Shown piece by piece: positions 18,610 to 38,258 of a stretch of DNA of 64,000 bases. Under the pieces are notes generated by a model that saw only the letters and a list, made by a program, of their open reading frames with translations, was not told the origin of the DNA and did no database searches. Source of the stretch: Pseudomonadota bacterium (GTDB lineage: Bacteria; Pseudomonadota; Gammaproteobacteria; Burkholderiales; JABEVD01); assembly GCA_021835845.1 (NCBI GenBank), contig JAKBJU010000013.1, positions 1 to 64,000 on the forward strand, written 5' to 3'. A program made the translations under genes and the position numbers. Position 1 is the first letter of the stretch. Every line of letters begins with the position of its first letter.

Positions 18610-18636
18610 ATATGACATCAAGGGACCGTTGAAAAA

Positions 18637-19491
18637 ATGACTGCGCATTCCGAAGACCTGATCGGCAAGTTCGGAGCCGCTGCCGAGAAAATGCCGGCAT
18701 TTCCGAAGAGCGTGCAAAAGGTCCTGGAATTGTCGAGGAACATCGACTGCCAGGCCAAGGACATCGTATCCGTCATCGAGAAGGATCCGGTGATGGCTGC
18801 CAAGATTCTGAAGGTGCTCAACTCGCCCTACTACAGCCTGCCGAGCAAAATCACCTCCATCGATCGCTCCATCGTCTACCTCGGCTTCAACACCGTCAAG
18901 AATCTGGCTCTCGGGATCGCTGCCATAGGAGTTCTTCCCAAGCACAACAGAGCTGATTTCGACATCGACCAGTATCTGCGCCATTCCCTGTTCGTCGCCG
19001 GCATTGCCAAACTGCTGTGCGGCAGAATATCCCCAAATACCGATTCGACCGAATGTTTCATCGCGGGTCTTCTGCACGACTTCGGGAAAGTCGTATTCGC
19101 GCAGTTCATGCCCGAGGAATTCAAGCTGGCCCTGGATCGCGCAAAGAACGGGAACATCCCGCTGCACCTTGCGGAAAGGGAAATTCTGGGTGCGGACCAT
19201 TGCCTGATGGGGTCAATGCTGGCCGAAAAATGGCAGTTTCCTGTGCCGCTCGTCGAAGCCATCCGGCATCATCACGAAGATGCGAACCAGGGCTCGGACG
19301 TGCTGGCCTGCGTGATGGCGGCAAACCGCATCAGCAAGACTGCGGATTTCGGCTTCTCGGGCAGCCCCTGCGTGGAGGAACTCCCCCCTTTCGCGTCGAA
19401 TCGCTGCGGCAATCTGGAGGACCTCACCCCGGAGGATCTCGCCAGAATCAGGGAAGAGGCGGAAATGTTTTCGCGGATCGGAAGCTCATGA
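18637..19491 (+). CDS. HDOD-domain signalling protein
   Basis: The 284-residue protein is mostly one HDOD domain (about residues 18-215), recognised by LPAFPKSVQKVLEL-type start, VIEKDPVMAAKILKVLNSPYYSLPSKITSIDRSIVYLGF and a GLLHDFGKVVF segment. HDOD proteins are metal-independent relatives of HD phosphohydrolases and act in signal transduction. There is no attached output domain. It follows prfB by 27 bases and overlaps the MBL gene as ATGA, so it is likely co-transcribed with both. Confidence 0.85.
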   Translation: MTAHSEDLIGKFGAAAEKMPAFPKSVQKVLELSRNIDCQAKDIVSVIEKDPVMAAKILKVLNSPYYSLPSKITSIDRSIVYLGFNTVKNLALGIAAIGVLPKHNRADFDIDQYLRHSLFVAGIAKLLCGRISPNTDSTECFIAGLLHDFGKVVFAQFMPEEFKLALDRAKNGNIPLHLAEREILGADHCLMGSMLAEKWQFPVPLVEAIRHHHEDANQGSDVLACVMAANRISKTADFGFSGSPCVEELPPFASNRCGNLEDLTPEDLARIREEAEMFSRIGSS

Positions 19492-20372
19492 AAATCAAGT
19501 TCTGGGGCGTGCGCGGCTCGATACCTGTCCCGGGGCCGAAAACAGTCAAATACGGCGGCAACACTACCTGCATCGAAATCCGCACCGATTCGGGAGAACT
19601 CGTCATTCTCGACGGGGGAACCGGCATCTTTCAGCTGGCCCAATCGCTGCTGGGCGAAATGCCGGTTACCGCAAACGTATTCCTCTCGCACAGCCACTGG
19701 GATCATATCCACGGGCTGCCCTTCTTCATTCCGCTTTTCGTTCCGGGAAACCGCCTGCGGCTTCACGGCGCATACGATCTGGTTTCAAGCCGCGGCGTGG
19801 AACAGGTGATGGACGTGCAGTTGCAGTACAGCTTCTTCCCCATCAGGGAAGCGGAACTTCAGGCGTCCATAGAATATTTCACGCTCACCCCGGGAGTGCC
19901 TGTGGAAATAGGCAATGCCACCACGGTCACGCCGATACTGCTCAATCACCCCGTGGTGAATTTCGGCTACCGCATCGATTGCAATGGAAAATCGGTGTTT
20001 TTCACCGGAGACCACGAACCGCCCTACAATATCTACTCCCCTGAAGAAGCCGGCCACGACGAATACCGGCAGATCATCCAGGAAAGGGAAGCGGGCATTC
20101 TGGATGCGATCAGGGGCGTGGACGTGATCATCGCCGATTCGAGCTACTCCAATGAGGAATACGCCAAAAAGAGAGGCTGGGGGCACGGCACCTTCGACAC
20201 ATCCATCCGGCTCGCGCGGGATGCGGGTGCGAAAATTCTGTATTTCACCCATCACGAACCGACCCGCAGCGACGACGATCTGGAGCGAATTTTCGCCGAC
20301 ATCCTGAAAAAACATCCGCCCGAAGGACTGGAATACCGCCTGGCCAAGGAAGGCGATGGCATGGAATTCTAG
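19488..20372 (+). CDS. MBL-fold metallo-hydrolase
   Basis: The 294-residue protein starts MKIKFWGVRGSIPVPG and carries the metal motif HSHWDH (H68, H70, D72, H73), with further ligands in TGDHE and the HHEPTRSDDDLE end. The family is a stand-alone metallo-beta-lactamase-fold hydrolase, often found beside signalling genes; several relatives act on cyclic nucleotides or phosphodiesters, but the substrate here is unknown. The ATG at 19488 overlaps the HDOD stop. Its own TAG stop is formed by the first bases of the adjoining miniature element. Confidence 0.83.
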   Translation: MKIKFWGVRGSIPVPGPKTVKYGGNTTCIEIRTDSGELVILDGGTGIFQLAQSLLGEMPVTANVFLSHSHWDHIHGLPFFIPLFVPGNRLRLHGAYDLVSSRGVEQVMDVQLQYSFFPIREAELQASIEYFTLTPGVPVEIGNATTVTPILLNHPVVNFGYRIDCNGKSVFFTGDHEPPYNIYSPEEAGHDEYRQIIQEREAGILDAIRGVDVIIADSSYSNEEYAKKRGWGHGTFDTSIRLARDAGAKILYFTHHEPTRSDDDLERIFADILKKHPPEGLEYRLAKEGDGMEF

Positions 20373-20641
20373 GGCCTGTTAACACTTGTCCGGTGCGGTG
20401 CGTTGCGGCAAGATGCCGGCGGATACAAGGCGTGCGGCGCAGCGAATGGTTGCGCCCTTCGCAAGGCGCGCAACACAGTAGACGCGGCATATTGCCGCAA
20501 CCCGAAGGGAACGGTTGAATCAGGGACACTGCCGCGTTCCTCACGGCTTGTTTGGAATAACCAAACCGCGCCGCTCCGGCCTTGCCCTGTCACCTGATTC
20601 ATCACGTTCGCACGCATCGGGCAAGTGTTAACAGGCCCTAG
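20369..20641. mobile_element. 273-bp miniature inverted-repeat element, copy A
   Basis: The segment is bounded by 20-base perfect inverted repeats CTAGGGCCTGTTAACACTTG (20369-20388) and complement (20622-20641). It has no credible gene. An element of exactly the same length, roughly 90 percent identical by eye and in the opposite orientation, occurs at 40427-40699. The TAG stop of the MBL gene lies in the left CTAG; the convergent flavin reductase gene stops 11 bases beyond the right end. The CTAG ends could include a TA or CTAG target duplication, as in some IS5-family groups. Confidence 0.85.
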
Positions 20642-20652
20642 GGAAGTCCCGA

Positions 20653-21183
20653 TCACCGCATTTCGGAAGGCAGTCTTACCGTCTCGCCCGCGACCATGAA
20701 GGTGCCGTAGCCGCGGTGATGGAGGGTCCTGGGCTCTGTCACTGCCGGATCGACCCATGCCCGCGTCACCTCCATGATGAAGAGTTGGTATTGCTTCACC
20801 CTGTCGATCACCTTGCACTCGAGGCTCGCGTAGCATTCCCCGATCAGGGCAGCTTCGACATCGGAAGCCTTTTCCCGGGTAAAGGCGCATGTCTCGAACT
20901 TGTCGGCGTTTCTTCCGCTCGAATTGCCGCACAAGGCAACCTGCCGACCGATCTCGGCTGTCGGAATGCTGATCGCGCATTCGCCGCTTTTCTCGAGCAA
21001 TTCGAAGCTGTAATTGCTTTCGCTGATCACGCAGGCAAGGATGGGCGGATCGAATTCGATCATGGTATGCCATGACTGGGCCATGATGCTCTCCCTGCCC
21101 TTCCAGCGCGTCGAGATCAGCACCACCGGCCCTGTCTCGAGCAGCCCGTAAACCCCTGACAAGGGAAAATCCTGCTTTGCCAT
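20653..21183 (-). CDS. Flavin reductase-like domain protein (FMN-binding)
   Basis: The 176-residue protein has the flavin-reductase/split-barrel fold: [36 protein letters not shown] is the flavin-binding start and [15 protein letters not shown] the central motif. Such proteins supply reduced flavin or bind FMN as redox carriers; the partner is unknown. The ATG at 21183 (after CTCGGGGGC) is preferred over upstream in-frame starts at 21216 and 21234. It is divergent from lysS. Confidence 0.82.
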
Positions 21184-21256
21184 CTTCGCCCCCGAGTCGC
21201 TGAACGGATATTCCATTGTAGCCACTGTTCGCAACTGGCGGCCTCCGTGGGCGCAA

Positions 21257-21265
21257 TGCTATAAT
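21257..21265 (+). promoter_or_regulatory. Extended -10 promoter for lysS
   Basis: TGCTATAAT combines a perfect TATAAT with the upstream TGn extension, which can work without a good -35 box. The predicted leader before the lysS ATG is about 42 bases. Confidence 0.55.
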
Positions 21266-21313
21266 TGCAGCCATTTTCCGGGAAAAAGCCCTTCGGTTTG
21301 CGGGCATACAGAC

Positions 21314-22804
21314 ATGGCAGAACAACAGGACGAAAACCAGATCGTGGCCGAGCGCCGCGCCAAGCTCGCAGCCTTGAGGGAAAAAGGCGTCGCCTTCCCC
21401 AACGACTTCGAAAGAAAACACTTCGCAGCCGATCTTCACCAGGCTTACGATTCGCTGGAAAACGAAGCTCTCAGGGAAGAGTCCCTGGAAGTAGCCGTCG
21501 CCGGAAGGATGATGCTGAAGCGCGTGATGGGGAAAGCGAGCTTCGCCACCCTGCAGGACATGAGCGGAAAGATCCAGCTCTACATCGCCAACGACATCAC
21601 GGGAATCGAGGCGCACGAGGCTTTCAAGCACTACGACCTGGGCGACATCCTGGGCGCGAAGGGAAAACTTTTCAAGACCAGGACGGGCGAGCTTTCCGTC
21701 GAAGTCTCCGAAATCAGGCTGCTCTCCAAGGCCTTGCGCCCCCTGCCGGAAAAATTCCACGGCCTCACTGACCAGGAACAGAAATACCGCCTGCGCTACA
21801 TCGACCTCATCACCAACGAGGAAACGCGCAAGGTTTTCGTTGCGCGATCGAGAATCATCCAGGCGATGCGCGAATTTTTCGCTGCCCATGGCTACCTCGA
21901 AGTCGAGACGCCGATGATGCACCCGATTCCGGGAGGCGCTTCCGCAAGGCCCTTCGTCACTCACCACAACACGCTCGACATGCAGCTTTATCTCAGGATA
22001 GCGCCGGAGCTTTATCTGAAGCGCCTGGTGGTAGGAGGGATGGAGAAAGTCTTCGAGATCAACCGCAATTTCAGGAACGAAGGCATGTCGACCCGGCACA
22101 ATCCGGAATTCACCATGATCGAATTCTACGAGGCCTACCGGGATTACAAGTACCTGATGGATTTCACCGAGGCCCTTTTCCGGGAAATCGCGAAAAAGAC
22201 CCTGGGCGGCACCCGTTTCGAATACCAGGGCAAAGCGCTCGACTTCGGCAAGCCCTTCGACAGGCTGACGCTCTCCCAGGCGATCCGCAAATACCACCCG
22301 GACTACAATGCCTCCGACCTGGACAGCCGTCCGTTCCTGATTTCGAAGCTCGAGGAACTCGGCGCGCACCACAGGAAAACGGACGGAATAGGTGGATTGC
22401 AGCTCTCCCTTTTCGAGGAAACGACCGAGCACCTGCTTTTCGACCCCACCTTCATCGTCGATTATCCTGCGGAAGCCTCCCCTCTCGCGAGAAGGAACGA
22501 CGGGGATCCCTCGATCACCGACCGGTTCGAACTATTCATCGCCGGGCGCGAGATCGCCAATGGCTTTTCCGAGCTCAACGATCCGGAAGACCAGGCCGAG
22601 CGCTTCATGGATCAGGTCAGGCAGAAGGAATCGGGGGATATGGAGGCGATGCATTACGACGCCGATTATATCCGCGCGCTCGAACATGGCCTTCCTCCGA
22701 CTGCGGGGGAAGGCATAGGCATCGACAGGCTGGTCATGCTGCTCACGGACAGCCCATCCATCCGGGATGTGATCCTGTTTCCCCAGATGCGCCCCGCGGA
22801 CTGA
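21314..22804 (+). CDS. lysS: Lysyl-tRNA synthetase (class II)
   Basis: The 496-residue enzyme has an N-terminal OB-fold anticodon domain (about 55-145) and a class II core. Motif 2 is seen in [23 protein letters not shown] and motif 3 in [13 protein letters not shown]. It charges tRNA-Lys. Its position downstream of prfB is shared with many proteobacteria, but here HDOD, MBL and flavin reductase genes plus a miniature element separate the two. Confidence 0.97.
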
Positions 22805-26314: not shown

Positions 26315-27106
26315 CTATTCCCAGAATTGCCACCAGGGCAATTTCTGCTTGGTGGAAATGACCTTCTTGTCCCATTGCGGATAGGTCTTGTCGAGAACCC
26401 GCTTGGCATCGTCGCGCAGCTTGTCCATGCCGAGCCTGTCGTAGGACTTCACCATGTCGACCAGAGCATTTTCGGTAGCCGGGGTCTTGGGATATTCCTT
26501 CAGCACCGTCTGCGCCCGGTTGATGGAAGCGACATAATCGCCCCGCCTGTAATAATAATCGGCGACGCGAATTTCATGCATGGACAGCAAGTTGGCCAGA
26601 TACTGCATGCGCAGCCTCGAGTCGGGCGCATACTTGCTGTTCGGAAAGCGGGTCACCAGCGCCTTGAAAGCGTCGAACGACTCCACTTCGGATTTCGGAT
26701 CCCTCTGGCTCATGTCCTTGGGAACGATGGAAGAAATGACCCCGGTCTCGCCGATAAAATTGGCTATCCCCTTCATGTAATAGGCATAATCCACTGCCGG
26801 GCTGTTCGGGTGGAACTTGATGAAGCGGTCTGCAGCGGCTATCGCCGAGGCCTCGTCCTTGTTCTCGAAATACACGTAGATCAGTTCGATCTGGGCCTGC
26901 TGCGCATATTTGCCATAGGGGTAGCGGGACTGGAGCTTCTCCAGATAGGTCGTGGCCTTCTCGTAGTTTTGATCATCGATTTCAGCCTTGGCCGCCTTGT
27001 AGATTCGTTCAGCGGACCAGGATTCCGGTACTTCTTCCTTGTAATTCGGCAAAAGTCCGCAGCCTGCCAACATCAGGGCCAGAATTAACGCTAAACTATG
27101 TCTCAT
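26315..27106 (-). CDS. bamD: Outer-membrane assembly lipoprotein BamD
   Basis: The 263-residue lipoprotein has a signal peptide with lipobox LAGC (Cys16) and tetratricopeptide-like repeats (about 30-230), including YPYGKYAQQAQIELIYVYF and FPNSKYAPDSRLRM. BamD is the essential scaffold of the BAM complex that folds beta-barrel proteins into the outer membrane. Divergent from rluD, the usual arrangement in proteobacteria. Its stop codon directly abuts that of copA. Confidence 0.96.
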   Translation of the reverse strand: MRHSLALILALMLAGCGLLPNYKEEVPESWSAERIYKAAKAEIDDQNYEKATTYLEKLQSRYPYGKYAQQAQIELIYVYFENKDEASAIAAADRFIKFHPNSPAVDYAYYMKGIANFIGETGVISSIVPKDMSQRDPKSEVESFDAFKALVTRFPNSKYAPDSRLRMQYLANLLSMHEIRVADYYYRRGDYVASINRAQTVLKEYPKTPATENALVDMVKSYDRLGMDKLRDDAKRVLDKTYPQWDKKVISTKQKLPWWQFWE

Positions 27107-27132
27107 GAAAGATCCCGTCGGAAAACCTGGAG

Positions 27133-27138
27133 ATTATA
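27133..27138 (-). promoter_or_regulatory. -10 box for bamD (TATAAT)
   Basis: A perfect TATAAT on the minus strand lies 26 bases before the bamD start; TTAAGT 16 bases upstream is a moderate -35 element. It falls inside the region that a 27105 start would make part of rluD, which supports the later rluD start. Confidence 0.5.
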
Positions 27139-27173
27139 CCCCAAACTGGGCAGCACTTAAGGGAATCAATTTC

Positions 27174-28073
27174 GTGATTCCCATGCAATTTGCAGGGCTA
27201 CGCCTGGATCAGGCGCTCGCAAAACTGGCTCCTGACCATTCGAGAAGCCGCCTGCAGTCATGGATCAGGGATGAAAAAGTGAAGCTCGACGGCGGCCCCT
27301 GCCACATCAGGCAGAAAGTCTGGGGAGGAGAATCCGTGTTCATCGAAAGCTCCCCCGATCCTGCCGAAATGCCGCATGCCCCCGAAGATATCGAACTTTC
27401 CGTCCTTTTTGAAGACGATTTTCTGATCGTGATCGACAAGCCAGCCGGCCTCGTCGTGCATCCAGGAAGCGGAAACCGGGAAGGCACGCTGCTGAATGCC
27501 CTGCTTCACCATGAGCCATCGCTTTCGGCAATCCCGCGCGCGGGAATCGTCCATCGACTCGACAAGGAGACGAGCGGGCTGCTGGTCGTGGCCAAGACGC
27601 TCCCCTCGCAGACCAGCCTGGTGCGGCAGCTCCAGGGAAGAACCGTGAAGCGGCAGTATGTCGCACTGGTGCATGGGATCGTGAAGCACGATGGGACGGT
27701 TGATGCGCCGGTGGGCCGACATCCCACCCATCGCACCAGAATGGCAGTCGTGGGCAGCGGAAAATCCGCCAGGACGCATTACAGCGTGATCGAGACCTTT
27801 TCCGGATGCACTCTTCTCGAATGCTCGCTCGAAAGCGGCAGGACCCACCAGATCAGGGTCCACATGCAGCATATCGGTCACCCTCTCGTGGGCGACCCGG
27901 TCTACGGAAAGAAGCCGCTTCCTTCTGAAAATTCGACGCTCCTGTCGGGCTTTCCCAGGCAGGCGCTGCATGCAAGGCGATTGTCTTTTGCCCATCCTGA
28001 AAACGGCGAGCTGATGACATTCGAATCCGCCCTCCCCGAAGATATGTCCCGCCTGCTGGAAAGGCTGAAATGA
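27174..28073 (+). CDS. rluD: 23S rRNA pseudouridine synthase RluD
   Basis: The 299-residue protein has an N-terminal S4 domain (FAGLRLDQALAKLAPDHSRSRLQ) and the catalytic HRLDKETSGLL motif, with HQIRVHMQHIGHPLVGDPVYG near the end. RluD modifies helix 69 of 23S rRNA (U1911/1915/1917 in E. coli). The GTG at 27174 is chosen because AAGGGA lies 9 bases upstream and the family N-terminus starts here. An ATG at 27105 has no ribosome site and would overlap the bamD promoter. Overlaps pgeF as ATGA. Confidence 0.92.
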   Translation: MIPMQFAGLRLDQALAKLAPDHSRSRLQSWIRDEKVKLDGGPCHIRQKVWGGESVFIESSPDPAEMPHAPEDIELSVLFEDDFLIVIDKPAGLVVHPGSGNREGTLLNALLHHEPSLSAIPRAGIVHRLDKETSGLLVVAKTLPSQTSLVRQLQGRTVKRQYVALVHGIVKHDGTVDAPVGRHPTHRTRMAVVGSGKSARTHYSVIETFSGCTLLECSLESGRTHQIRVHMQHIGHPLVGDPVYGKKPLPSENSTLLSGFPRQALHARRLSFAHPENGELMTFESALPEDMSRLLERLK

Positions 28074-28768
28074 ATTTCATCGTCCCGCAATGGCCCGCTC
28101 CGGCAAATGTCAAAGCCCTGATCACGACAAGAGCGGGGGGCGCAAGCCTCCCCCCCTATGCCAGCCTCAATCTCGGCAGCCATGTCGGAGACGACCCGAA
28201 CCATGTTGCGGAAAACCGGAAAAGAATCCGCGAATTTCTGCCCGGCGAGCCGAAATGGCTCAATCAGGTGCACGGCAACACCGTCGTCGACCTGGACAAC
28301 CCGGACACGTTCGATGCGGACGGCGCGTTCACCCGACAACCCGATGTCGTCTGCGCCATCCTGACCGCAGATTGCCTCCCCGTCCTGATTGCCGGCCGGC
28401 ACTGCGTCGGGGCCCTTCATGCCGGCTGGCGGGGGCTCGCTTCCGGCATAGTCGAAAGAACCGTGCAGGCGATGCGGGACGCTTCCTGCGCCTACCTTGG
28501 CCCCGCAATAGGGCAGGATGCCTTCGAGATCGGGGAAGAAGTGCTGGACGCCTTCCCCGAAGAAAGCCCGGCTTTCAGGCGCGGGAGAAGCGGCAAATGG
28601 CATGCCGACATTTATGCCATCGCGAAAATGAAGCTTGGAAGGCTCGGCATCCATGACATCCACGGGGGAAATTTCTGCACCCGCAATGAATCTTCCCGCT
28701 TCTTTTCCTACCGGCGTGACGGGAATACCGGAAGGATGGGATCGTTCATCTGGCTCGAAGAAGCATGA
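28070..28768 (+). CDS. pgeF: Polyphenol oxidase/YfiH family protein (purine nucleoside phosphorylase-like, PgeF)
   Basis: The 232-residue protein has the YfiH family metal and catalytic motifs: NQVHGN, TADCLPV and HAGWRG, with the conserved Cys and two His residues. The family (laccase-domain, PgeF) has been linked to purine nucleoside phosphorolysis/deamination and to peptidoglycan editing. It is translationally coupled to rluD, its standard partner. Confidence 0.9.
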   Translation: MNFIVPQWPAPANVKALITTRAGGASLPPYASLNLGSHVGDDPNHVAENRKRIREFLPGEPKWLNQVHGNTVVDLDNPDTFDADGAFTRQPDVVCAILTADCLPVLIAGRHCVGALHAGWRGLASGIVERTVQAMRDASCAYLGPAIGQDAFEIGEEVLDAFPEESPAFRRGRSGKWHADIYAIAKMKLGRLGIHDIHGGNFCTRNESSRFFSYRRDGNTGRMGSFIWLEEA

Positions 28769-28783
28769 AGCATCGGTTATAAT
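28755..28783 (+). promoter_or_regulatory. Promoter for the ZIP transporter gene
   Basis: TCGAAG (28755-28760), a 17-base spacer and a perfect TATAAT (28778-28783) lie over the end of pgeF. The predicted leader is about 25 bases. Confidence 0.45.
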
Positions 28784-28814
28784 CGAAAGTTCCCCGTAAA
28801 ACAGGATGTTGTCC

Positions 28815-29570
28815 ATGTCAGTTCTTTCCTGGATCGTGACGACGAGCACCGTGGGCGGCCTTGCCAGCCTGGCGCTCGCCGGATCCTTCGCCCTCAGCCT
28901 GCGCGCATCCTGGGTGCCGATGCTCGTCAGCTATGCAGTTGGCGCGCTGCTGGGCGCGGCCTTCCTCGAAATCCTGCCGGAAGCCTTCAGGCTGACGAAA
29001 AATCCGGGAATGATGACGGCAACCATCCTGTTCGGGATACTGCTGTTCTTCATCCTGGAAAAGCTCGTGTTGTGGCGCCATTGCCATGCCGAGGACTGCG
29101 AAGCGCACGAATCGCACGATCACGGCAGAAGCGGCCTCATGATCATGATCGGAAACACTTTCCACAATTTCGTCGACGGCATTCTGATAGCCGCAGCCTT
29201 TCTGAGCGACATCCATCTCGGCATCGTCACCGCAATCGCCATCATCGCCCACGAAATTCCGCAGGAAGTCGGAGACTTCATGATCCTGCTGCATTCGGGC
29301 TATTCGAAACGACAGGCCATCCTGTTCAATCTGACTTCCAGCGGCGCGACCCTCGCGGGCGGCGTGCTCGCCTACGCCGTGCTGCAGTCCATGCAGGGCC
29401 TGATTCCTTCCCTGCTGGCGCTCGCCGCATCTTCCATGATCTATGTTTCAGTGGCCGACCTGATCCCGGGACTGCACAAGCGCACCGAAATCCGCGCCAC
29501 GGTGCAGCAGGTTCTGCTGATCTCGCTCGGCATAGGCTCGATCCTGGTTGCCGGACTGCTGGCCGAATAA
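28815..29570 (+). CDS. ZIP family divalent metal transporter
   Basis: The 251-residue protein has about eight hydrophobic segments. The ZIP signature is clear: HNFVDG in TM4 and HEIPQEVGDF in TM5 form the binuclear metal site. A His-rich loop (WRHCHAEDCEAHESHDHG) lies between TM3 and TM4. It probably imports Zn, Fe or Mn. The ATG at 28815 has AGGA at correct spacing; an ATG three codons earlier is too close to it. Confidence 0.88.
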   Translation: MSVLSWIVTTSTVGGLASLALAGSFALSLRASWVPMLVSYAVGALLGAAFLEILPEAFRLTKNPGMMTATILFGILLFFILEKLVLWRHCHAEDCEAHESHDHGRSGLMIMIGNTFHNFVDGILIAAAFLSDIHLGIVTAIAIIAHEIPQEVGDFMILLHSGYSKRQAILFNLTSSGATLAGGVLAYAVLQSMQGLIPSLLALAASSMIYVSVADLIPGLHKRTEIRATVQQVLLISLGIGSILVAGLLAE

Positions 29571-29611
29571 TGATGATATGATCTGCATCGTGTTGAATTG
29601 ATCCGACTCAC

Positions 29612-30922
29612 ATGTCCGCTCCCAAAATAGGCTTCGTTTCCCTCGGCTGCCCCAAGGCGCTTGTCGATTCCGAGCACATCCTTTCCCGGCTGAGGTCGGA
29701 AGGCTATGCCATTTCGCCCGACTATCAGGGCTCCGACATGGTCGTCGTCAATACCTGCGGCTTCATCGACAGCGCAGTGGAAGAATCGCTGGAAGCGATC
29801 GGAGAAGCCTTGAACGAGAACGGGAAGGTGATCGTCACCGGCTGCCTCGGCGCGAGAGGCGACATGGTGAAGGAAGCGCACCCGGCGGTGCTTGCCGTCA
29901 CCGGCCCCCACGCCCTCGAAGAAGTCATGCAGGCAGTCCACCAATACCTGCCCAAACCGCACGACCCCTTCGTCGATCTCGTCCCGCCACAGGGCATCAG
30001 ACTCACCCCGAGGCATTATGCCTATCTCAAGATTTCGGAAGGCTGCAACCACCGCTGCACCTTCTGCATCATCCCGAGCCTCAGGGGAGACCTTGTCAGC
30101 CGCACCATCGGGGAAGTGATGAAGGAGGCAGAAGCGCTGGTCAAGGCCGGCGTGAAGGAACTCCTCGTCATCTCCCAGGACACCAGCGCATACGGGGTCG
30201 ACATCAAGTACAGGACCGGCTTCTTCGAAGGCCGTCCGGTCAAAACCAGAATGACGGAACTTGCCAGGGCACTGGGCAGCCTCGGCGTCTGGGTCAGGCT
30301 GCATTACGTCTATCCCTACCCGCATGTCGACGAACTGATTCCGCTGATGGCGGAAGGCAAGATCCTGCCCTATCTCGACATGCCGCTGCAACATGCAAGC
30401 TCCAGGATACTGAAGCTCATGAAGCGCCCCGGGAACAGCGAAAGCAACCTCGAACGCATCCGGGCGTGGCGGAAAATATGCCCCGACATCGCCATCCGAA
30501 GTACCTTCATCGCGGGGTTCCCCGGGGAAACGGAAGCCGAGTTCGAGGCGCTTCTCGACTTCCTGGAAGAAGCCGAACTCGACCGCGTGGGATGCTTTCC
30601 CTACTCTTCCGCGGAAGGCGCCGCGGCGAATTCCCTGCCCGATCCTGTCCCGGAAGAAGTCAAGATCGAGCGCGTCGAGCGCCTGATGGCGACTCAGTCA
30701 GCCATCAGCGAAAGGAAACTGCGATCGAAAATCGGCAGAACCCTTCAGGTTCTGGTCGAATCGGTTGACGAAGAGGGCGCCGTGGGCAGGAGCATGCATG
30801 ATGCGCCCGAAATAGACGGCCTGGTTTATATACCGGATGCTTCAGATCTGAAAGCCGGCGAATTCGCAGCCGTCCGAATCGCCGATTCGGACGAGCACGA
30901 TCTTTGGGGAGAAATGGCATGA
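29612..30922 (+). CDS. rimO: Ribosomal protein S12 methylthiotransferase RimO
   Basis: The 436-residue radical-SAM enzyme has the N-terminal methylthiotransferase domain with auxiliary cluster cysteines C13, C49 and C78, the radical-SAM cluster C145-x3-C149-x2-C152 (CNHRCTFC), and a C-terminal TRAM domain (about 370-436). RimO adds a methylthio group to Asp89 of ribosomal protein S12. The start gives the normal [15 protein letters not shown] terminus. No clear ribosome site is visible. The stop overlaps the next gene as ATGA. Confidence 0.96.
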
Positions 30923-32385
30923 AGGCTTTCATCCTGTTGCTGCTTGCCTGCTTTGCTTCGATTGCATCGGCAAAGCATCTCCCGCCCCAGTCGAAGATTG
31001 CGCGTTATTTCGAATCTGCAGGCCCGCAAGAAAAACTCGCCTTCCTGCTCGCCATGCCCAAGGGAGGGGAACTCGATGCGGAAATGCAAGGATCGGCCTA
31101 TGCGGAGTCGATGATAGCCTGGGCGGCCAAGAAAGGACTGTGCGTGGCAGAAGACATGAGCCTCTCCATGCCGCCTTGCAACGCGGGAAAGCTTTCGGCC
31201 AAGGCAGTGCTTGCCGACCCCGCGCTCTACCGGAAAACGCTCGATGCCTGGTCGATGCGAGGCCTGGCAGGAAAAAACCGGGATCACTTCTTCTCAAGCT
31301 TCGGAAAATTCGAGCAGGCCACCCAAGGCATGACAGGAGCCATGCTCGCGCAAATGCTTTCGCGTGCGGCCAAAGAGCATGTGCTTTACCTGGAAGTCGC
31401 GCTCGCGCCTGATGGCGAAGCCGCCCTGGCGCTGGGCAAGAGACTGGGCTGGGACGGCAACTTGCACAATACCCTGGAGAACCTGAGAAACAACGGGCTC
31501 GCCACAATGGCAGCGGCATCGCTGAAGGAAATGAAACTTGCCGAAGCGGAAAAGAACCAGCGCCTCAAGTGCGGCACGATTGCAGCCGATCCGGGCTGCA
31601 AGATATCCGTCCGCTATCTCTACAGCGTATCCAGGAACACGATGCCCGGGGAAGTTTTCGCGCAGATGGCAGCCGGCCTCGAATTGGCCTCGCGCCCGGA
31701 CTCCGGGTTTTCAGGCATTTTGCTTTCGGGGGCCGAGGACGAGTCGATGCCGGACTTCAGCCTGCACATGCAGATGCTCGACTTCCTGAAATCCGTCTAT
31801 CCGAAAACGCATGTCGCCGTGAATGCGGGCGAGCTCAATCTCGATCTTGCGCCGCCCGAAAACTTGTCCTTCCATGTCAGCGAGGCCGTCATGCTGGGAC
31901 ATGCCGAACGCATCGGACAGGGTTCGGACATCCTGCGCGAGCCATCTGGGCTTCTGCAAAAGCTCGCCAAAATGAAGGTGCTGGTCGATATCTGCCCCGG
32001 GAGGACCGACACCGTCCTGGGAGAATATGCCAATCCCCTGCCGGTCTACCTGAAATACGGCGTGCCCGTTGCGATTTCAGGCTGCGATGCGGGCGTTCTG
32101 AGAAGCGACATCTCGATGGAATACCTGAAGGCTTCGCTGGATGCCCATCTCGGCTACCCCGAGCTCAGGAACATCGCGCGCGACAGCCTGGAATACGCGT
32201 TCATTCCGGGGAAAAGCCTTTGGGCGAATGCCGCGAAATTCGTTCCCGTCAGGCAATGCGAGCGGGATGTGCGGTATGGGCGAATGCTGTCGGCATTTTG
32301 TCAGGACTATCTGGACGCCAACCAGAAAGCCAGGCTGCAATGGCAACTCGAAGCGGAATTCAGGGCTTTCGAGAAGCGCTACTGA
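30919..32385 (+). CDS. Secreted adenosine-deaminase-like protein lacking catalytic metal ligands (predicted pseudoenzyme)
   Basis: The 488-residue protein has a signal peptide (cleavage near ASA-K, residue 18-19). It is homologous throughout to periplasmic bacterial adenosine deaminases of the ADGF type: MPKGG near residue 46, [24 protein letters not shown] and a DxGVxR segment. The active site is gone. The metal pair H-x-H is D53-x-E55; the HAGE histidine is N302 (E305 remains); the RIGHG histidine is Q334; the first Asp of the DD pair is C389 (D390 remains). The reading frame is intact over its length, so it is not a simple decay product. It overlaps rimO by four bases and the convergent periplasmic gene by 26. 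Confidence 0.85.
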
Positions 32386-32821
32386 ATCCGTCCAGGAGAA
32401 AGACCCATCTGCTTCCGGATTCCCCGAGCAGCCTGACATAGGCAGTGAAGGCTTCCCCCTTCCCGAGCTGCTTCTGCATGTCGGTGAGGACATCGAAGGA
32501 AACCGGCATCCAGTAATCCTTGCCGTCCTCGGTCACCTTGACTTCGTTTCCGTATTTCATGTCCTGGACGGGATAATCGCGATCCACTCCGAAAAACCCG
32601 CTCAGCACCTGACTTCCGGCAACCGAAGTGGGGCGGATCTCGCCCGTATAAACCACTTTCGCGCTGAAGGCATAGTCCTGCTTGAAGACCACGAATCCGC
32701 CGTGCCCTGCGTGAGACGCGATGCTCACGCCGTCTGCAAGTCTCGCCGGAACATAGGCTTCCCATTTCCCGAATGCCCCTTGAGAGACCAGCATGGCCAG
32801 CACGAGCAGCGCCTTTTTCAT
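32360..32821 (-). CDS. Putative periplasmic protein, unknown family
   Basis: The 153-residue protein has a clear signal peptide (MKKALLVLAMLVSQGAFG, cleavage before K19). The mature part is beta-rich with YAFSAKVVYTGEIRP and DYWMPVSFDVLTDM stretches and no cysteines. No family is recognised. The ATG at 32821 follows AGGAACAGGA; an ATG five codons upstream lacks a ribosome site. Its 3' end overlaps the adenosine-deaminase-like gene by 26 bases. Confidence 0.6.
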   Translation of the reverse strand: MKKALLVLAMLVSQGAFGKWEAYVPARLADGVSIASHAGHGGFVVFKQDYAFSAKVVYTGEIRPTSVAGSQVLSGFFGVDRDYPVQDMKYGNEVKVTEDGKDYWMPVSFDVLTDMQKQLGKGEAFTAYVRLLGESGSRWVFLLDGFSSASRKP

Positions 32822-32832
32822 TCCTGTTCCTT

Positions 32833-32919
32833 TCATGATACGAGTTCCGGACGATGGATATGATAGCCTTGCGCATAGTCTACCCCAACCCGGTGCAGCA
32901 GCAGGGCAAGAAGCCCCAT
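32833..32919 (-). pseudogene. Remnant of the C-terminus of an EAL-domain c-di-GMP phosphodiesterase
   Basis: A minus-strand reading frame of 28 codons ends with VGVDYAQGYHIHRPELVS and a TGA stop. D-Y-A-Q-G-Y-x-I-x-R-P is the typical closing motif of EAL domains. The frame stays open a few codons further upstream (to about 32946) but nothing recognisable as the rest of the domain precedes it. The TGA overlaps an ATG of the following gene. The simplest reading is the 3' scar of a deleted GGDEF/EAL gene. Confidence 0.5.
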
Positions 32920-33029
32920 TTCCAGAAAAAGAGATCGCTTCACCCGCCCCCCTTGGCGGCCTGACAATCCGTCAAATCAGGCTGTTCTTTATTGAACTAT
33001 TCTACCCAAAACAATTATGGGGACATTGC

Positions 33030-33062
33030 CGGCAAGATTGCAAGCATTTTTCAATCTTGCCG
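33030..33062. terminator. Stem-loop at the 3' end of the helicase gene
   Basis: CGGCAAGATTG (33030-33040) and its complement (33052-33062) form an 11-base-pair stem with an 11-base loop. It includes the stop codon of the minus-strand helicase gene. There is no U-tract on the minus strand after the hairpin. Confidence 0.45.
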
Positions 33063-35003
33063 CGATTCATGGCTCACGGCAAAAAACCCGGCTGCCTCGG
33101 CCTGCTTCCTGGTCCTTTTCATCGGGGGCAGGCTGCGCCAGATCCGCCTGCCATAGGACTTGGAGACGATCCTCGGATCGCAGATCATGAGCACCCCCCT
33201 GTCCTCCTCGCTGCGAATCAACCGGCCCGCCCCCTGCTTCAGGGTCAGAACCGCGTGGGGAAGCTGGAATTCCATGAAGGCATTGCCGCCTTCCTTATTG
33301 ATCTTCTGTATCCTGGCGGAAAGCACGGGATCGTCGGGAGGAGCGAAGGGAAGCTTGTCGATCACGACCAGCGACAATGCCTCCCCCCGCACGTCGACTC
33401 CCTCCCAGAAGGATTGGCTGCCGAGCAGGACGGCGTTGCCGAGTTGCCTGAATCGCTCAAGCATCGCATTTTTCGCCCCCTCCCCCTGAAGCAGGAGCGG
33501 GAAATCGAGCTTTTCCTTCGCGAATGCCTCCTTCAGCAATTCATGGGCAAGGCGCATCGCCTTCAGGCTGGTGAACAGCATAAATGCCCGCCCGCCGCTC
33601 GCAGCAATCAGGGGAAGCGCGGCATCGACCACAGCCCGGGTATGTTCGCGGCTGTTGGGTTCAGGCATCGCTTCCGGCACATAGAGCAGCGCCTGGTTGG
33701 GGTAATCGAAGGGACTGTCCAGGCAAAGCGTTTTCGCGTCAGCAAGACCCATCTGCTCCAGATAATGGGAAAAATTCCCGCCCACGGCAAGGGTCGCCGA
33801 GGTAAAAATCCACGACATCGGCCTTGCCTCGATCTGGCTGGAAAAGAGCTTCGCGATCGACATGGGCGTGGCATTGAGCTGCATCGCCTGGCTGTAAACC
33901 TCCACCCAGCGGACGAATTCACCGGAATCGTCATCTCGCCAGTTCTTCGCCCTGCGCAGCATTTCGACCGCCCTGTCCCTGCAGTTCTTCAGGCCTTCGC
34001 TGCGCTCCGCCTGGAGATCGAGCAGCTTCGAAAGCGCATCAAGGCTTCCCATCAGGGCACCCAGGCTGGAGAAAAAGTCCGCATCCAGCGCGGCAATCGG
34101 CAGCCTGGAATCGGCCTCCAGAACGGAAAGCCTGAGATCCTTGGCGCCTTTTTCGAGTTTCGCCGCAGCTTCGGGCAATGCCGCAAAATCCTTGGCCGAA
34201 ATTGCCGCTTCCAGCCTGGTGTCGCGCGCAAGCTCGATCATCTGGCCGGTTCCCACCGTTTCGCCGAGGAAAAGGCTGGCGACTTCTGGAAGCTGGTGGG
34301 CTTCGTCGAAAATCACGGTATTGCAGGCGGGAAGGAGTTCTGCCACGCCTTCGTCCTTCAGCATCACGTCGGCGAAGAAAAGATGGTGATTGACCACCAC
34401 GAGATCGGCCCGCATGGCGGCGCGCCTTGCCTCCATCACGAAGCATTCCTTGTGATTCGGGCATTCCGACCCCAGGCAGTTCTCGCGGGTGGAAGTCACC
34501 AGCGGCCAGATGGTTGCATCCTCGGGCACTTCGACGAGCCCGCTCTTGTCTCCGCTTCGGGTGGTTCTCGAATAGCGCTCTATGTGCTTGAGATAGGCGA
34601 CATCCTCTCTTGACGATAGCCTCCCTTCCTTTCCGGTGCGCTCCAGATGATAATGGCAGATATAGTTTGCGCGCCCCTTGAGCAGGGCCGTCTCGACCAA
34701 GATTCCGAGGGCGCTCACCATGGCGGAGATATCCCGGGTATAGAGTTGATCCTGAAGCGTCTTGGTTCCTGTGGAAACGATGATTTTCCCGCCTGAAAGG
34801 AGTGCCGGCACGAGGTAGGCGAATGTCTTTCCCGTGCCCGTCCCCGCCTCGATGACCAGCAGGCCGCTCTTCGCTATCGCCTCGAGAACCGCCTTTGCCA
34901 TTTCGGTCTGCTGAGGCCTGGGCCTGAAGCCTTCGATCGCGCGGGACAGGAAGCCCCCCCCGGAAAAGGCGGATTCGATGTCTGATGAGGTTGGGAGCGG
35001 CAT
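33051..35003 (-). CDS. DinG/YoaA-type ATP-dependent DNA helicase
   Basis: The 650-residue superfamily-2 helicase has Walker A GTGTGKT (about residue 54), DEAH box FDEAHQLPE, and the C-terminal motif QGAGRLIRSEEDRG. Four cysteines between motifs I and II (ICHYH, ENC, SECPNHKEC) match the Fe-S cluster site of the XPD/DinG group. It probably unwinds DNA 5'-3' in damage repair. The ATG at 35003 gives the family-like N-terminus; the in-frame extension upstream crosses a TATAAT. Confidence 0.88.
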   Translation of the reverse strand: MPLPTSSDIESAFSGGGFLSRAIEGFRPRPQQTEMAKAVLEAIAKSGLLVIEAGTGTGKTFAYLVPALLSGGKIIVSTGTKTLQDQLYTRDISAMVSALGILVETALLKGRANYICHYHLERTGKEGRLSSREDVAYLKHIERYSRTTRSGDKSGLVEVPEDATIWPLVTSTRENCLGSECPNHKECFVMEARRAAMRADLVVVNHHLFFADVMLKDEGVAELLPACNTVIFDEAHQLPEVASLFLGETVGTGQMIELARDTRLEAAISAKDFAALPEAAAKLEKGAKDLRLSVLEADSRLPIAALDADFFSSLGALMGSLDALSKLLDLQAERSEGLKNCRDRAVEMLRRAKNWRDDDSGEFVRWVEVYSQAMQLNATPMSIAKLFSSQIEARPMSWIFTSATLAVGGNFSHYLEQMGLADAKTLCLDSPFDYPNQALLYVPEAMPEPNSREHTRAVVDAALPLIAASGGRAFMLFTSLKAMRLAHELLKEAFAKEKLDFPLLLQGEGAKNAMLERFRQLGNAVLLGSQSFWEGVDVRGEALSLVVIDKLPFAPPDDPVLSARIQKINKEGGNAFMEFQLPHAVLTLKQGAGRLIRSEEDRGVLMICDPRIVSKSYGRRIWRSLPPMKRTRKQAEAAGFFAVSHESRQD

Positions 35004-35012
35004 AGCTTGCCA

Positions 35013-35018
35013 ATTATA
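35013..35018 (-). promoter_or_regulatory. -10 box (TATAAT) 9 bases before the helicase start
   Basis: A perfect TATAAT on the minus strand is separated from the ATG at 35003 by TGGCAAGCT, leaving room for at most a 1-3 base leader. The -35 region is weak. Confidence 0.4.
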
Positions 35019-35115
35019 ACCCAGGCCAGTCCAGAATCGACGCGCCTGCTCAGACTGAATTCCCTGGCAATCCTCCGAAGGTCGAGGTAAATTTTCCATT
35101 TTGCAAGGAGTCCCC

Positions 35116-35523
35116 ATGAGCGAAGAAGTTTTTTACAGGCCCGATGAGGCCTTCTCCCGGGAGGAGCGCACCCTGCCTGCAGAACTCTACAATCTCGCCA
35201 GGCTCATGGTCGCAAGAAATGCCGGTCCCGTTTTCGTTCCGATCAGAAGCATGCAGTTCCTTGCCGTTCTCGACTGCGAAGAATTCATTTTCGCCGACGG
35301 CACCGGGAGCCGGACCATAGAAATCTCATGGCACCGCTTCAGACCCGGAAGCAGGGCCGCGCTCAGCGACGCAGTGCCCTATGAAGCCGTTTACTATTCG
35401 CCGGAAGCTGTCCAGACCATGAAGCGACTGCAGGGTGATTTCGCGAAAGCGCTCGGCGCACTCGCATCGAAACAGGAGCCGCCGTCAGGCGATGCGAAGG
35501 TGATCCGGTTCGAACCCAAATGA
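35116..35523 (+). CDS. Conserved-looking hypothetical protein
   Basis: The 135-residue soluble protein has no recognised domain. The centre (GPVFVPIRSMQFLAVLDCEEFIFADG) looks beta-rich, followed by IEISWHRFRPGSRAALSDAVPYEAVYYS and a charged tail. A perfect AAGGAG stands before the ATG at 35116. The stop codon directly abuts that of the convergent kinase gene. Codon usage is like its neighbours. Confidence 0.65.
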   Translation: MSEEVFYRPDEAFSREERTLPAELYNLARLMVARNAGPVFVPIRSMQFLAVLDCEEFIFADGTGSRTIEISWHRFRPGSRAALSDAVPYEAVYYSPEAVQTMKRLQGDFAKALGALASKQEPPSGDAKVIRFEPK

Positions 35524-37848
35524 TCAGAGCTTCTGCTTGATGGCAAGAACCGCCTGATTGCGCACGGTTTTCAGAAGGGCAAGCTCCTTTTCCTCTATTT
35601 TCAGAAGATTGGCTTCCACCCTGTCGGCATAGAGCATGCCGATGAGCCGCTTGTCGACGATGAGGGGAAACAGGATGAACGATTTCGCATCGATGCTGGT
35701 CCGATACCAGGCCGGGATCCGCTCCCTGATGTTTTCGGCATCGATATCCGAAATGAAAATGTCGAGCCCCTGCTCCAGGGCCACGAGAAATACGTCTCTG
35801 GGGCCTGAAAGCGGAAACTTGAACCGCTTCACGATTCCCTCCACGCCCTGCCCCAAGCCAAACCTGCCCACCATGGCATTCTGCCTGGCGTCCTTGATCG
35901 CCAGCAATACTCTCGAGAAGTTCATGCTGCGGTATATCGTTTCAAGCACCATGCGCAAGAGGTCGTTGAGGTCGTACTCTTCAAGCAACACGTTGGTGAT
36001 ATCCTGAATGCCGGCTGTCAGCAAGCTCCCCGAATCCTGCCTTGCAGGGGCCGCACCGACTGCGTTCTCGACCTTGATCGTTTTCTGGAATTCGTCTTCG
36101 TTCGGCCTGGTCTCGGAGCTGGCGCCGGACCACTGGTTGACATTCTTCAGGAAAATACTGTCCTTGCTGTTGAGCCCGAGGATCTTGATCTCGATCATGA
36201 ATTTCTTCATCGATTCTTCTAGGGCCCTGCCGAGCGTCTTCTCCGAAACAGGCAGGGCCGCATGGTAGCGCGAAGCGAGCGCATGGAGTTCGCGCCCCTT
36301 GTCCTGGTGCTTACCGGACTGCGCAACGTGGCGCAATTCGTTGGCAAGATTGGTCAGCACCCTGAGCTTGCCGGAATCCGAATCCTGACTCCTGATCTTC
36401 TCGTCGCCGATTTTTCGCATGCTGGATACGATTCTTGAGGGAAAGTGCCAGTTCTGCGCGATTCCGATGCCGAGTTCTTCATAGGTAATGCCCAAGACCG
36501 AAGCCGAGGCGTCGTCTTCCCCCATCTTCTCGGCCATATTGCCGATCGCCAGCGCTTCCTCGGGGAAATAGAACGAGGCAAGCAATTTCCCGAGGTTGTA
36601 GAACATGCTGCAGATGGCGGCCTCCTCCGCATCCCTGATGCCGATTTTCGGCGCAAATTCCCTGGCCAGCACGCCGCTGAAAAATGTGGACATGATCTCG
36701 TCTTTGAGCCTGAGCGCTTGGGACTTGTTCTGCAGATGCTCGAAAAGCAGGAGGGTGATCGCAACATTCCTGACGGTATTGAAGCCGAGGATGACGACAG
36801 CGCGCGAAACCGTGCTGATCGTGCCGCCGAACTGGCCGTAGGTTGCCGCATTGACCAGCTTGATCAGCTTGTTCGTGAGCGAAAAGTCCCTCAGGATGAA
36901 GTTCGAAAGATTCGAAACGCTTTCCTTGTCGGACGCAGCGATCTTGTTGACAGCGCTGATCGCCTGAGAAAGCGCGGGAAAATCAGATTTGTGCCGCATC
37001 CTTCTGAGCAGAAATTCGAGGGTGCTCTGCTTCCCTTCCCCCTCCGCATGCGCGGGCTCGCCATAAGCTTTCAATCCGGAAATCAGGCTCTCGGCATCCG
37101 GGTAACGGTCTTCCGGTTTGATGGCAAGCGCCTTCAGAAGCAGGCTGTCCAGTTTCTCGTCCAGAGTCTGCATCAGCTGCGAGGGCGGCGGAACCGGAAT
37201 GGTTGCGATATTGCGCAGGATTTCTTCGACGCTACTTCCTTCAACGGGATGTCGTCCGGTCAGCATGACGTAAAGAACCATGCCGAGCGAGAAAATATCG
37301 GACTGCGGACTCGACTTCCTTTTCGAAACATATTCCGGCGCCATGTAAAGCGGAGAACCGAGAAGCTCCGTGGCAGCATCGGGAGAAGCCATGCTTTGTG
37401 CGATCCCGAAATCCATGATCCTGGGCACGCCGGCGGCATCGATCATGATATTGGCCGGCTTGATATCCCTGTGTATGATCTTCTGGCCATGCGCACAGGA
37501 CAGTCCATCCAGGATCTGGAGCGCAATGCCTATCGCTTCCATCGTCGGCAAGGCGCCGTTTTTCCTGATTCTCTGGGCCAGGGTCATGCCTTCCACGTAC
37601 TCGAACACCAGATAGGGTGCGCCCTCGTGCTCCCCTGCATCGTAAAGCGTGACGATGTTGGGATGCCTGAGCTTGGCCACGATCCTCGCCTCGTCGAGCA
37701 ATCCCTCGAAGCCCGCATCGATTGCGAGCAGCTTGATTGCAACCTGCCTTCCGAGTCGGGGATCCTGTGCAAGATAAACCTTGCCCTGCGCGCCCTCGCC
37801 CAGCAGCCCTTCGATCTGGAAACGACCGATGGATTTCAAATCCTTCAC
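35524..37848 (-). CDS. Ser/Thr protein kinase-HDOD-GAF fusion
   Basis: The 774-residue cytoplasmic protein joins three domains. A Hanks-type kinase (about 8-270) has the G-loop LGEGAQGKVYLA, Lys in VAIKLL, HRDIKPANIM, DFGIAQS and GSPLYMAPE, so all catalytic residues are present. An HDOD domain (about 295-500) contains FSLTNKLIKLVNAATYG and VVILGFNTVRNVAI. A GAF-like domain (about 605-774) ends the protein. There is no membrane segment. The start is a GTG at 37848 with AGAGGG 9 bases upstream; a TTG just before it is an alternative. Divergent from the DUF2784 gene. Confidence 0.85.
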   Translation of the reverse strand: MKDLKSIGRFQIEGLLGEGAQGKVYLAQDPRLGRQVAIKLLAIDAGFEGLLDEARIVAKLRHPNIVTLYDAGEHEGAPYLVFEYVEGMTLAQRIRKNGALPTMEAIGIALQILDGLSCAHGQKIIHRDIKPANIMIDAAGVPRIMDFGIAQSMASPDAATELLGSPLYMAPEYVSKRKSSPQSDIFSLGMVLYVMLTGRHPVEGSSVEEILRNIATIPVPPPSQLMQTLDEKLDSLLLKALAIKPEDRYPDAESLISGLKAYGEPAHAEGEGKQSTLEFLLRRMRHKSDFPALSQAISAVNKIAASDKESVSNLSNFILRDFSLTNKLIKLVNAATYGQFGGTISTVSRAVVILGFNTVRNVAITLLLFEHLQNKSQALRLKDEIMSTFFSGVLAREFAPKIGIRDAEEAAICSMFYNLGKLLASFYFPEEALAIGNMAEKMGEDDASASVLGITYEELGIGIAQNWHFPSRIVSSMRKIGDEKIRSQDSDSGKLRVLTNLANELRHVAQSGKHQDKGRELHALASRYHAALPVSEKTLGRALEESMKKFMIEIKILGLNSKDSIFLKNVNQWSGASSETRPNEDEFQKTIKVENAVGAAPARQDSGSLLTAGIQDITNVLLEEYDLNDLLRMVLETIYRSMNFSRVLLAIKDARQNAMVGRFGLGQGVEGIVKRFKFPLSGPRDVFLVALEQGLDIFISDIDAENIRERIPAWYRTSIDAKSFILFPLIVDKRLIGMLYADRVEANLLKIEEKELALLKTVRNQAVLAIKQKL

Positions 37849-37883
37849 CAATTGCAACCCTCTATCTGGACTAGAATCAAACC

Positions 37884-38258
37884 ATGAACTACAGGATTCT
37901 CGCCGATCTCGTTGTATTTCTCCACTTTTTATTCGTGGTCTTTGCGCTGTTCGGCGCAATCCTGGTGCTGAAATGGCAGAAAGCGATGTGGATACAAATC
38001 CCTGTAGCGCTTTGGGCGATGGCTGTCGAATATGCGAACCTCCCCTGCCCCGTCACTCCCATCGAAAAATGGCTCATCCGGAAGGAAGGGCTCGAAGCCT
38101 ACCAGGGAAGCTTCGTCGGGCATCACATTCTCTCCATCCTTTACCCCGGCCTGCTCGGAAACAGCACCAGAATAGTCCTCGGCACGATCGTCCTGCTTCT
38201 CAATGTCGGCATTTACCGGAATATCTTGAGACGCAGTCGAAAAAACGTTCTAGAATAG
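37884..38258 (+). CDS. DUF2784 family membrane protein
   Basis: The 124-residue protein has three or four hydrophobic segments and the DUF2784 hallmarks LADLVVFLHFLFVVFALFGA near the start and CPVTPIEKWLIRK plus a GHHILSILYP segment in the centre. Its function is unknown. The ATG at 37884 lies 35 bases from the divergent kinase start. Confidence 0.82.
   Translation: MNYRILADLVVFLHFLFVVFALFGAILVLKWQKAMWIQIPVALWAMAVEYANLPCPVTPIEKWLIRKEGLEAYQGSFVGHHILSILYPGLLGNSTRIVLGTIVLLLNVGIYRNILRRSRKNVLE

Follow-up and report, generated by a model that had tools for sequence, protein, structure and literature searches.

Dead relatives of enzymes are common. Some insect ADGFs are reported to be without activity; these ADGF relatives, which are eukaryotic, apparently lost the deaminase function. 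A role of animal ADGFs other than deamination is, to our knowledge, also an open question. A 2018 study by Skaldin reportedly deals with a secreted bacterial deaminase; among open-licence PMC papers, we found no title or abstract start on a dead bacterial ADGF.

Human ADA2 and the animal ADGFs (structures 3lgd, 9nte and 9nti) have the same fold as the protein described here (Z ~31-32) and are likewise secreted. Human ADA2 contains four zinc-coordinating residues that are common to it and Helix AMP deaminase (PMC10358891); by alignment, our protein has none of the four. A loss of metal ligands has been described for CRMP-4, a barrel of the amidohydrolase superfamily that keeps two of six metal ligands and a cavity and for which DHPase activity was not observed (PMC4051505). 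CRMPs thus resemble our protein as barrels with lost metal ligands, but they are cytosolic, dihydropyrimidinase-like and involved in neuronal development, and the parallel does not imply a common origin of the loss.

Bacterial secreted ADGF-type deaminases (PF00962) share with our protein length-wide homology, a signal peptide, paired cysteines, a C-terminal extension and, judging by the structural model, the adenosine deaminase barrel. In contrast to it, these relatives typically have intact site residues (103 of the 112 distinct proteins considered below) and a highly conserved active face. Two functional relatives, L024 (from Pyrinomonadaceae) and L025, are 47% and 45% identical to our protein; by inspection, the gene for L024 lies near xanthine-dehydrogenase-like genes, whereas ours lies behind rimO.

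The window, that is, the whole stretch of 64,000 nucleotides that was analyzed, contains at positions 30919..32385 of the + strand a gene (P0001) encoding a 488-residue exported homolog of ADGF-type adenosine deaminases that is dead with respect to the known active site. A ribosome-binding-like stretch, GGGGAGAA, is located just 5' of the ATG, the frame is open over all 488 codons, and orthologs are present in five further genomes of the same genus; an assembly error is ruled out by the presence of the dead gene in six genomes. The Pfam A_deaminase profile (PF00962) matches residues 150-432 with 55.6 bits (E 5.8e-15), above the curated cut-off of 27, which makes the protein a family member by descent. 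It does not reach the cut-offs of the NCBIfam adenosine deaminase equivalog TIGR01430 (56.9 bits vs 216.55) and of the ADGF subfamily model TIGR01431 (18.7 vs 315). The intact frame, the kept signal peptide and the homology to bacterial secreted ADGF-type proteins over the whole length, all of which an earlier note on this DNA had claimed, hold in the alignments and, for the signal peptide, by inspection of the sequence. The predicted Sec-type signal peptide comprises 18 residues (30919..30972, + strand), with cleavage likely after ASA18, and ASA or QSA followed by KH is found at the signal end in all six bearers. A lipoprotein reading was considered and rejected, the signal-region Cys being missing in L023 (the same as L006). 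The dead homologs of the genus retain the export signal together with eight mature cysteines, and the six of these other than C359 and C389 are conserved across most of the C-terminally extended subfamily. The AlphaFold2 model, built from 42 aligned sequences, has a mean pLDDT of 92.4 and a pTM of 0.89, and the top structural matches in VIA-align are adenosine deaminases, namely, human ADAL (8qch; Z 36.1, 331 residues, rmsd 2.5), a mouse ADA variant (34.9) and ADA2 (31.7). The adenosine deaminase barrel is thus intact in the model, a result of the structure prediction that the earlier note had called for.

The residues quoted in that note fall, in alignments with relatives, in the columns it had assigned to them: 53 and 55 (the HxH pair), 302 and 305 (His and Glu of HAGE), 334 (His of RIGHG), and 389 and 390 (DD). 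Codons 53-55 (31075..31083, this and all following site codons on the + strand) encode D-A-E instead of the zinc-binding H-x-H; D53 is present in all five distinct proteins of the window's genus (f1), and E55 in four, with A in L023. At codons 302-305 (31822..31833), N-A-G-E stands for H-A-G-E, with both N302 and E305 found in 5/5 distinct f1 proteins. The catalytic His at codon 334 (31918..31920) is replaced by Q in four of the five and by S in L022, and the zinc Asp is changed to Cys at codons 389-390 (32083..32088; C-D instead of D-D). Codons 359-362 (31993..32004) encode C-P-G-R, and C359 is shared with the nearest functional relatives. Two further changes beyond those noted earlier, S362R and E357D, occur in all five distinct proteins of the genus, in columns where the 106 aligned rows that belong to neither dead lineage invariably have Ser and Glu, respectively. 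None of the zinc ligands of functional deaminases (His, His, His, Asp) is left in the window protein, which has D53, E55, N302 and C389, and the catalytic His of RIGHG is lacking as well; the HAGE Glu (E305) and the second Asp of DD (D390), in columns that we take to correspond to E217 and D296, the adenosine contacts in the mouse enzyme, are retained in the five distinct f1 proteins. Because these site residues are lost, the protein would not be expected to deaminate adenosine by known chemistry. The claim that every metal ligand had been replaced holds for the five proteins of the genus but does not extend to the second dead lineage (g9), which keeps H53.

The seven site columns read H,H,H,E,H,D,D in 103 of 112 distinct aligned proteins, so that the dead residue combination cannot be regarded as chance variation. 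Seven proteins are dead forms (DENEQCD three times, DENESCD, DANEQCD, HDTDQCD and HSTDQCD), and the remaining two are L077, with column 53 unread, and L029. The latter (L029:2070-3440), an ADGF relative from Terriglobales, carries only H334Q and has all zinc ligands intact, which might possibly represent a first step toward the dead forms or an independent variant. Partial, masked or misread loci (L045, L095, L110, L130 and L135) and duplicates (L007, L008, L009, L010, L011, L012 and L020) were left out of the 112, and L152-L158 are also outside the count. Seven further loci from the phylum search comprise three that read as functional and four that look functional by motif, L154 incompletely.

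The family of the window consists of one genus, and the dead form was found in six of the nine genomes examined, without internal stops in all six bearers. The other three (G002, G005 and G007) lack the gene, which is therefore dispensable, and have the 1.5 kb behind rimO occupied by other genes. G002 (C3) and G005 (C215) encode a functional-type ADGF of another subfamily in place of the dead one, and G007 has no ADGF of either type above the cut-off. Matches were found in 28/399 genomes of an order sample, eight of these being dead forms, in 18/369 genomes of a class sample (both at E <= 1e-20) and in 13/398 genomes of a phylum sample (E <= 1e-60), all drawn evenly and with the window's own genome included; from the scan of named genome contigs, the best 80 of 103 relatives were used. 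Among the proteins read, the only other dead forms are those of g9, from the two genomes examined of another family of the same order (L007, the same as L037, and L008, the same as L064), with the site sets HDTDQCD and HSTDQCD. The g9 proteins (L037:5815-7440 and L064:5812-7440) have a longer N-terminal region (541-542 aa in total) and combine the kept H53 with T302, D305, E333, Q334 and C389; at the seven sites, only Q334 and C389 are common to the two dead lineages. One scan of viral contigs yielded no relatives, and four relatives, 34-37% identical, are on plasmids. Five of the bearer genomes were binned from samples coded SKS1, SKS3 and SKS4; SKS denotes one acid mine drainage site in the available part of PMC9948709 and does not appear in that of PMC9061769, and we infer that the samples are the acid mine drainage samples of the former study.

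The loss of the site is combined with purifying selection on the gene. For close pairs of the dead gene (dS 0.20-0.35), omega is 0.20-0.23 by NG86 and 0.21-0.26 by YN00, compared with 0.09-0.11 and 0.07-0.09, respectively, for rimO of the same genomes; these ranges exclude the near-identical pairs L020/L021 (dead gene) and L143/L144 (rimO). In wider pairs, dS is high or saturated, and NG86 gives no usable dS for the g9 pair. Thus, the dead gene is constrained, although more loosely than rimO. The earlier note had proposed a selected rather than decaying gene and had named, as the opposite outcome, an absence of relatives with like substitutions together with dN/dS near 1. Such relatives exist, the gene is intact in six genomes with dN/dS ~0.2, and the signal peptide and cysteines are kept, so that the proposal is borne out and the gene survives this test. 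With catalytic residues lost under purifying selection, the window branch is a real, conserved pseudoenzyme.

We then compared the location of conserved residues, using an active face of 89 residues hand-picked from the eight predicted strand ends and the loops that follow. For functional proteins, taken as four sets of four sequences each, 56-72% of the active face is invariant vs 28-44% of the rest, whereas in four sequences of the window's genus the values are 49% and 44% (44/89 vs 167/376, Fisher p 0.41). In the f1 trio, 0.511 of the face and 0.465 of the rest are invariant, against a mean of 0.714 for the face of canonical trios, and of the canonical trios in which the rest is similarly conserved, 0/1188 are as low in the face, a result that is unchanged when the seven site residues are excluded. 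For the three f1 pairs, the matched canonical pairs that are as low number 0/199, 0/306 and 0/408. A scan of 45 overlapping 20-residue windows, with gaps counted as variable, indicates where conservation has been gained: segments 164-183 and 174-193 are 0.60 and 0.70 invariant in the genus, against canonical means of 0.21 and 0.28, and 0/2436 matched canonical trios are as high. Codons 164-193 (31408..31497, + strand), with helices 168-176 and 182-191 in the model, therefore encode a candidate new functional surface. Segments 114-133 and 354-373, conversely, are less conserved than in nearly all matched canonical trios. Because the sampled trios overlap in membership, the counts do not represent independent trials, and the tests rest on three or four lineages of one genus. 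The regional dN/dS split is less clear-cut: by NG86, the active face has a lower omega than the rest in four of six pairs and a higher one in two; hence the pocket is not neutral and is relaxed only relative to functional relatives.

The loss of face conservation together with its gain at 164-193 argues against a new metal chemistry and for a non-catalytic protein acting elsewhere on its surface: with the fold selected and the pocket devoid of extra conservation, a surface outside the pocket is the likeliest place of action. The reading that we favor, at a probability of roughly 0.55, is that of a secreted pseudoenzyme serving as a periplasmic scaffold or binding partner that acts outside the old pocket. 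An ancestor whose zinc site still functioned, closest to the present L024 and L025, would have lost both His of HxH, the third zinc His, the zinc Asp and the catalytic His, along with the S-N loop; the protein would now be translated behind rimO through the stop-start overlap and exported by Sec, with the intact barrel probably held by three ancestral disulfides. The lost activity, the localization, the disulfides, the translational coupling and the partner-binding role are all parts of this scheme that we infer. The six bearers (82-99% complete) contain no second PF00962 match above the cut-off, hence no sign of a dead subunit that partners an active adenosine deaminase of the same cell, and a heterodimer or dominant-negative action within the cell is disfavored for the same reason, with the scanned genomes being 82-100% complete; weak matches below the cut-off occur in G002, G003, G007 and G008, two of which are bearers. 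Of the selected new role suggested earlier, the selection and the fold stand, whereas roles that use the pocket, for a ligand or a metal, fit the window's genus poorly. If the favored reading is true, this branch is wrongly annotated as 'adenosine deaminase', and the protein would offer a way to find roles of secreted ADGFs apart from deamination; a bacterial case in which site loss, kept selection, a relaxed pocket and relocated conservation can be read together would be a useful test case.

Compatible with the scaffold or partner role is a tentative addition, namely, that a C359-C389 disulfide may close the former zinc site and turn the protein into a metal-free stapled barrel, possibly having evolved twice. 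C389 occurs only in the dead lineages among the proteins read and always alongside C359, both being present in each of the two lineages, and the conservation of the other six mature cysteines in most of the extended subfamily suggests an oxidizing compartment. However, C359 is also found in the functional relatives L024/L025 and L104-L107 and was probably inherited in both lineages, so that its co-occurrence with C389 is weak evidence.

A non-catalytic ligand binder, in which E305 and D390 would capture a nucleoside or nucleobase in the periplasm and leave it unconverted, appears rather unlikely for the window's genus. Six residues (D53, N302, E305, R362, C389 and D390) show no variation among the five distinct proteins of f1, which leaves room for some function of the pocket, and the invariance of E305 and D390 is what such a binder would predict. 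The g9 pair offers further support, with an active face as conserved as in functional relatives (0.809 vs a canonical mean of 0.835; 63/208 matched pairs as low or lower), a result from one pair of genomes, in which, moreover, the Glu is now Asp. In the genus of the window, the active face has lost its extra conservation, and the variation at 114-133 and 354-373 exceeds that of nearly all matched canonical trios, which speaks against ligand binding in the pocket.

The trees are compatible with one as well as two origins of the dead forms, which may thus have arisen either way. With the site columns included, the two dead lineages are joined (SH-aLRT 88). With these columns removed, f1 groups with L024 and L025 in two trees (support 99/98 and 94/98), and g9 groups with functional relatives from its own order (88/87 and, weakly, 55/87), but a single clade of both dead lineages is not rejected (AU p 0.244 and 0.344). 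Because functional relatives close to either lineage have C359 as well, the shared gains at these sites would be only C389 and Q334. Within the window's genus, the three non-bearers form a clade in the rimO tree (98/96), and, the basal order of the genus being open, a gain followed by loss and a late gain both fit. In a scenario that we consider improbable, two lineages would independently have made a metal-free protein out of a secreted adenosine deaminase by the same step, replacing the zinc Asp with a Cys next to one already in place and sealing the site with a disulfide; the pocket would have been retained as a nucleoside receptor in one lineage, and in the other the function would have shifted to a new surface. 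Such a history, if true, would allow successive stages of pseudoenzyme evolution to be compared in nature.

That D53, E55, N302, Q334 and C389 form a new metal site or support a new hydrolytic chemistry seems quite implausible, even though the replacements are all polar in the window protein and three of them, D53, N302 and C389, do not vary within the genus. The D-x-E/N/Q/C set that had been expected to be conserved is broken within the genus by E55A in L023 and Q334S in L022, five of the seven site residues are invariant, which is not clearly above the 45% base rate (binomial p 0.15), and the active face is relaxed, without extra conservation; the different metal or chemistry proposed earlier is accordingly not supported. 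Decay, with catalysis lost and the gene being discarded, is highly improbable: the three of nine genomes that have other genes behind rimO would agree with it, but the intact frame in six bearers, dN/dS ~0.2 and the preserved fold, signal peptide and cysteines do not. That the protein still functions as an adenosine deaminase through an unusual site is scarcely credible, the intact fold notwithstanding, given that four zinc ligands and the catalytic His are all replaced and the equivalog model gives 56.9 bits against a cut-off of 216.55.

The stop codon of rimO (29612..30922, + strand; Radical SAM, UPF0004 and TRAM_2 matches) and the start codon of the dead gene overlap in each of the six bearers (ATGA; TTGA in L023), and translation of the dead gene is probably coupled to that of rimO. 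A shared function does not follow from the overlap, and the operon context points to no partner. Upstream on the same strand lie an rluD-like gene (27105-28073, named by inspection), a pgeF/YfiH-like gene (28070-28768) and a ZIP zinc transporter gene (28806-29570), all separated from one another, from rimO and from the dead gene by overlaps or ~40-base gaps. A consensus scan of the + strand detected no sigma-70-like promoter or terminator-like site between these three genes and rimO, with which they likely form one transcription unit, and no structured RNA in Rfam matched at the gathering score within 27000-36000. No neighborhood shared by the two dead lineages was seen; in g9, the gene sits between a parC-like gene and a LysR regulator together with a metE-like gene (names by inspection).

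Several other features of the window deserve mention. Two long reading frames on the - strand that may be genes, 17533-19200 (555 aa) and 20369-22432 (687 aa), have no Pfam match at E 1e-4. A small protein with a signal-like start, encoded at 32360-32836 (-) and without Pfam or NCBIfam match, converges on the dead gene in a tail-to-tail overlap of 26 bases, and look-alikes of it are found downstream of rimO in L021, L022, G002 and G005. Finally, the gene at 35524-37959 (-) encodes a Ser/Thr protein kinase, HDOD and GAF in one protein, an unusual signaling combination.
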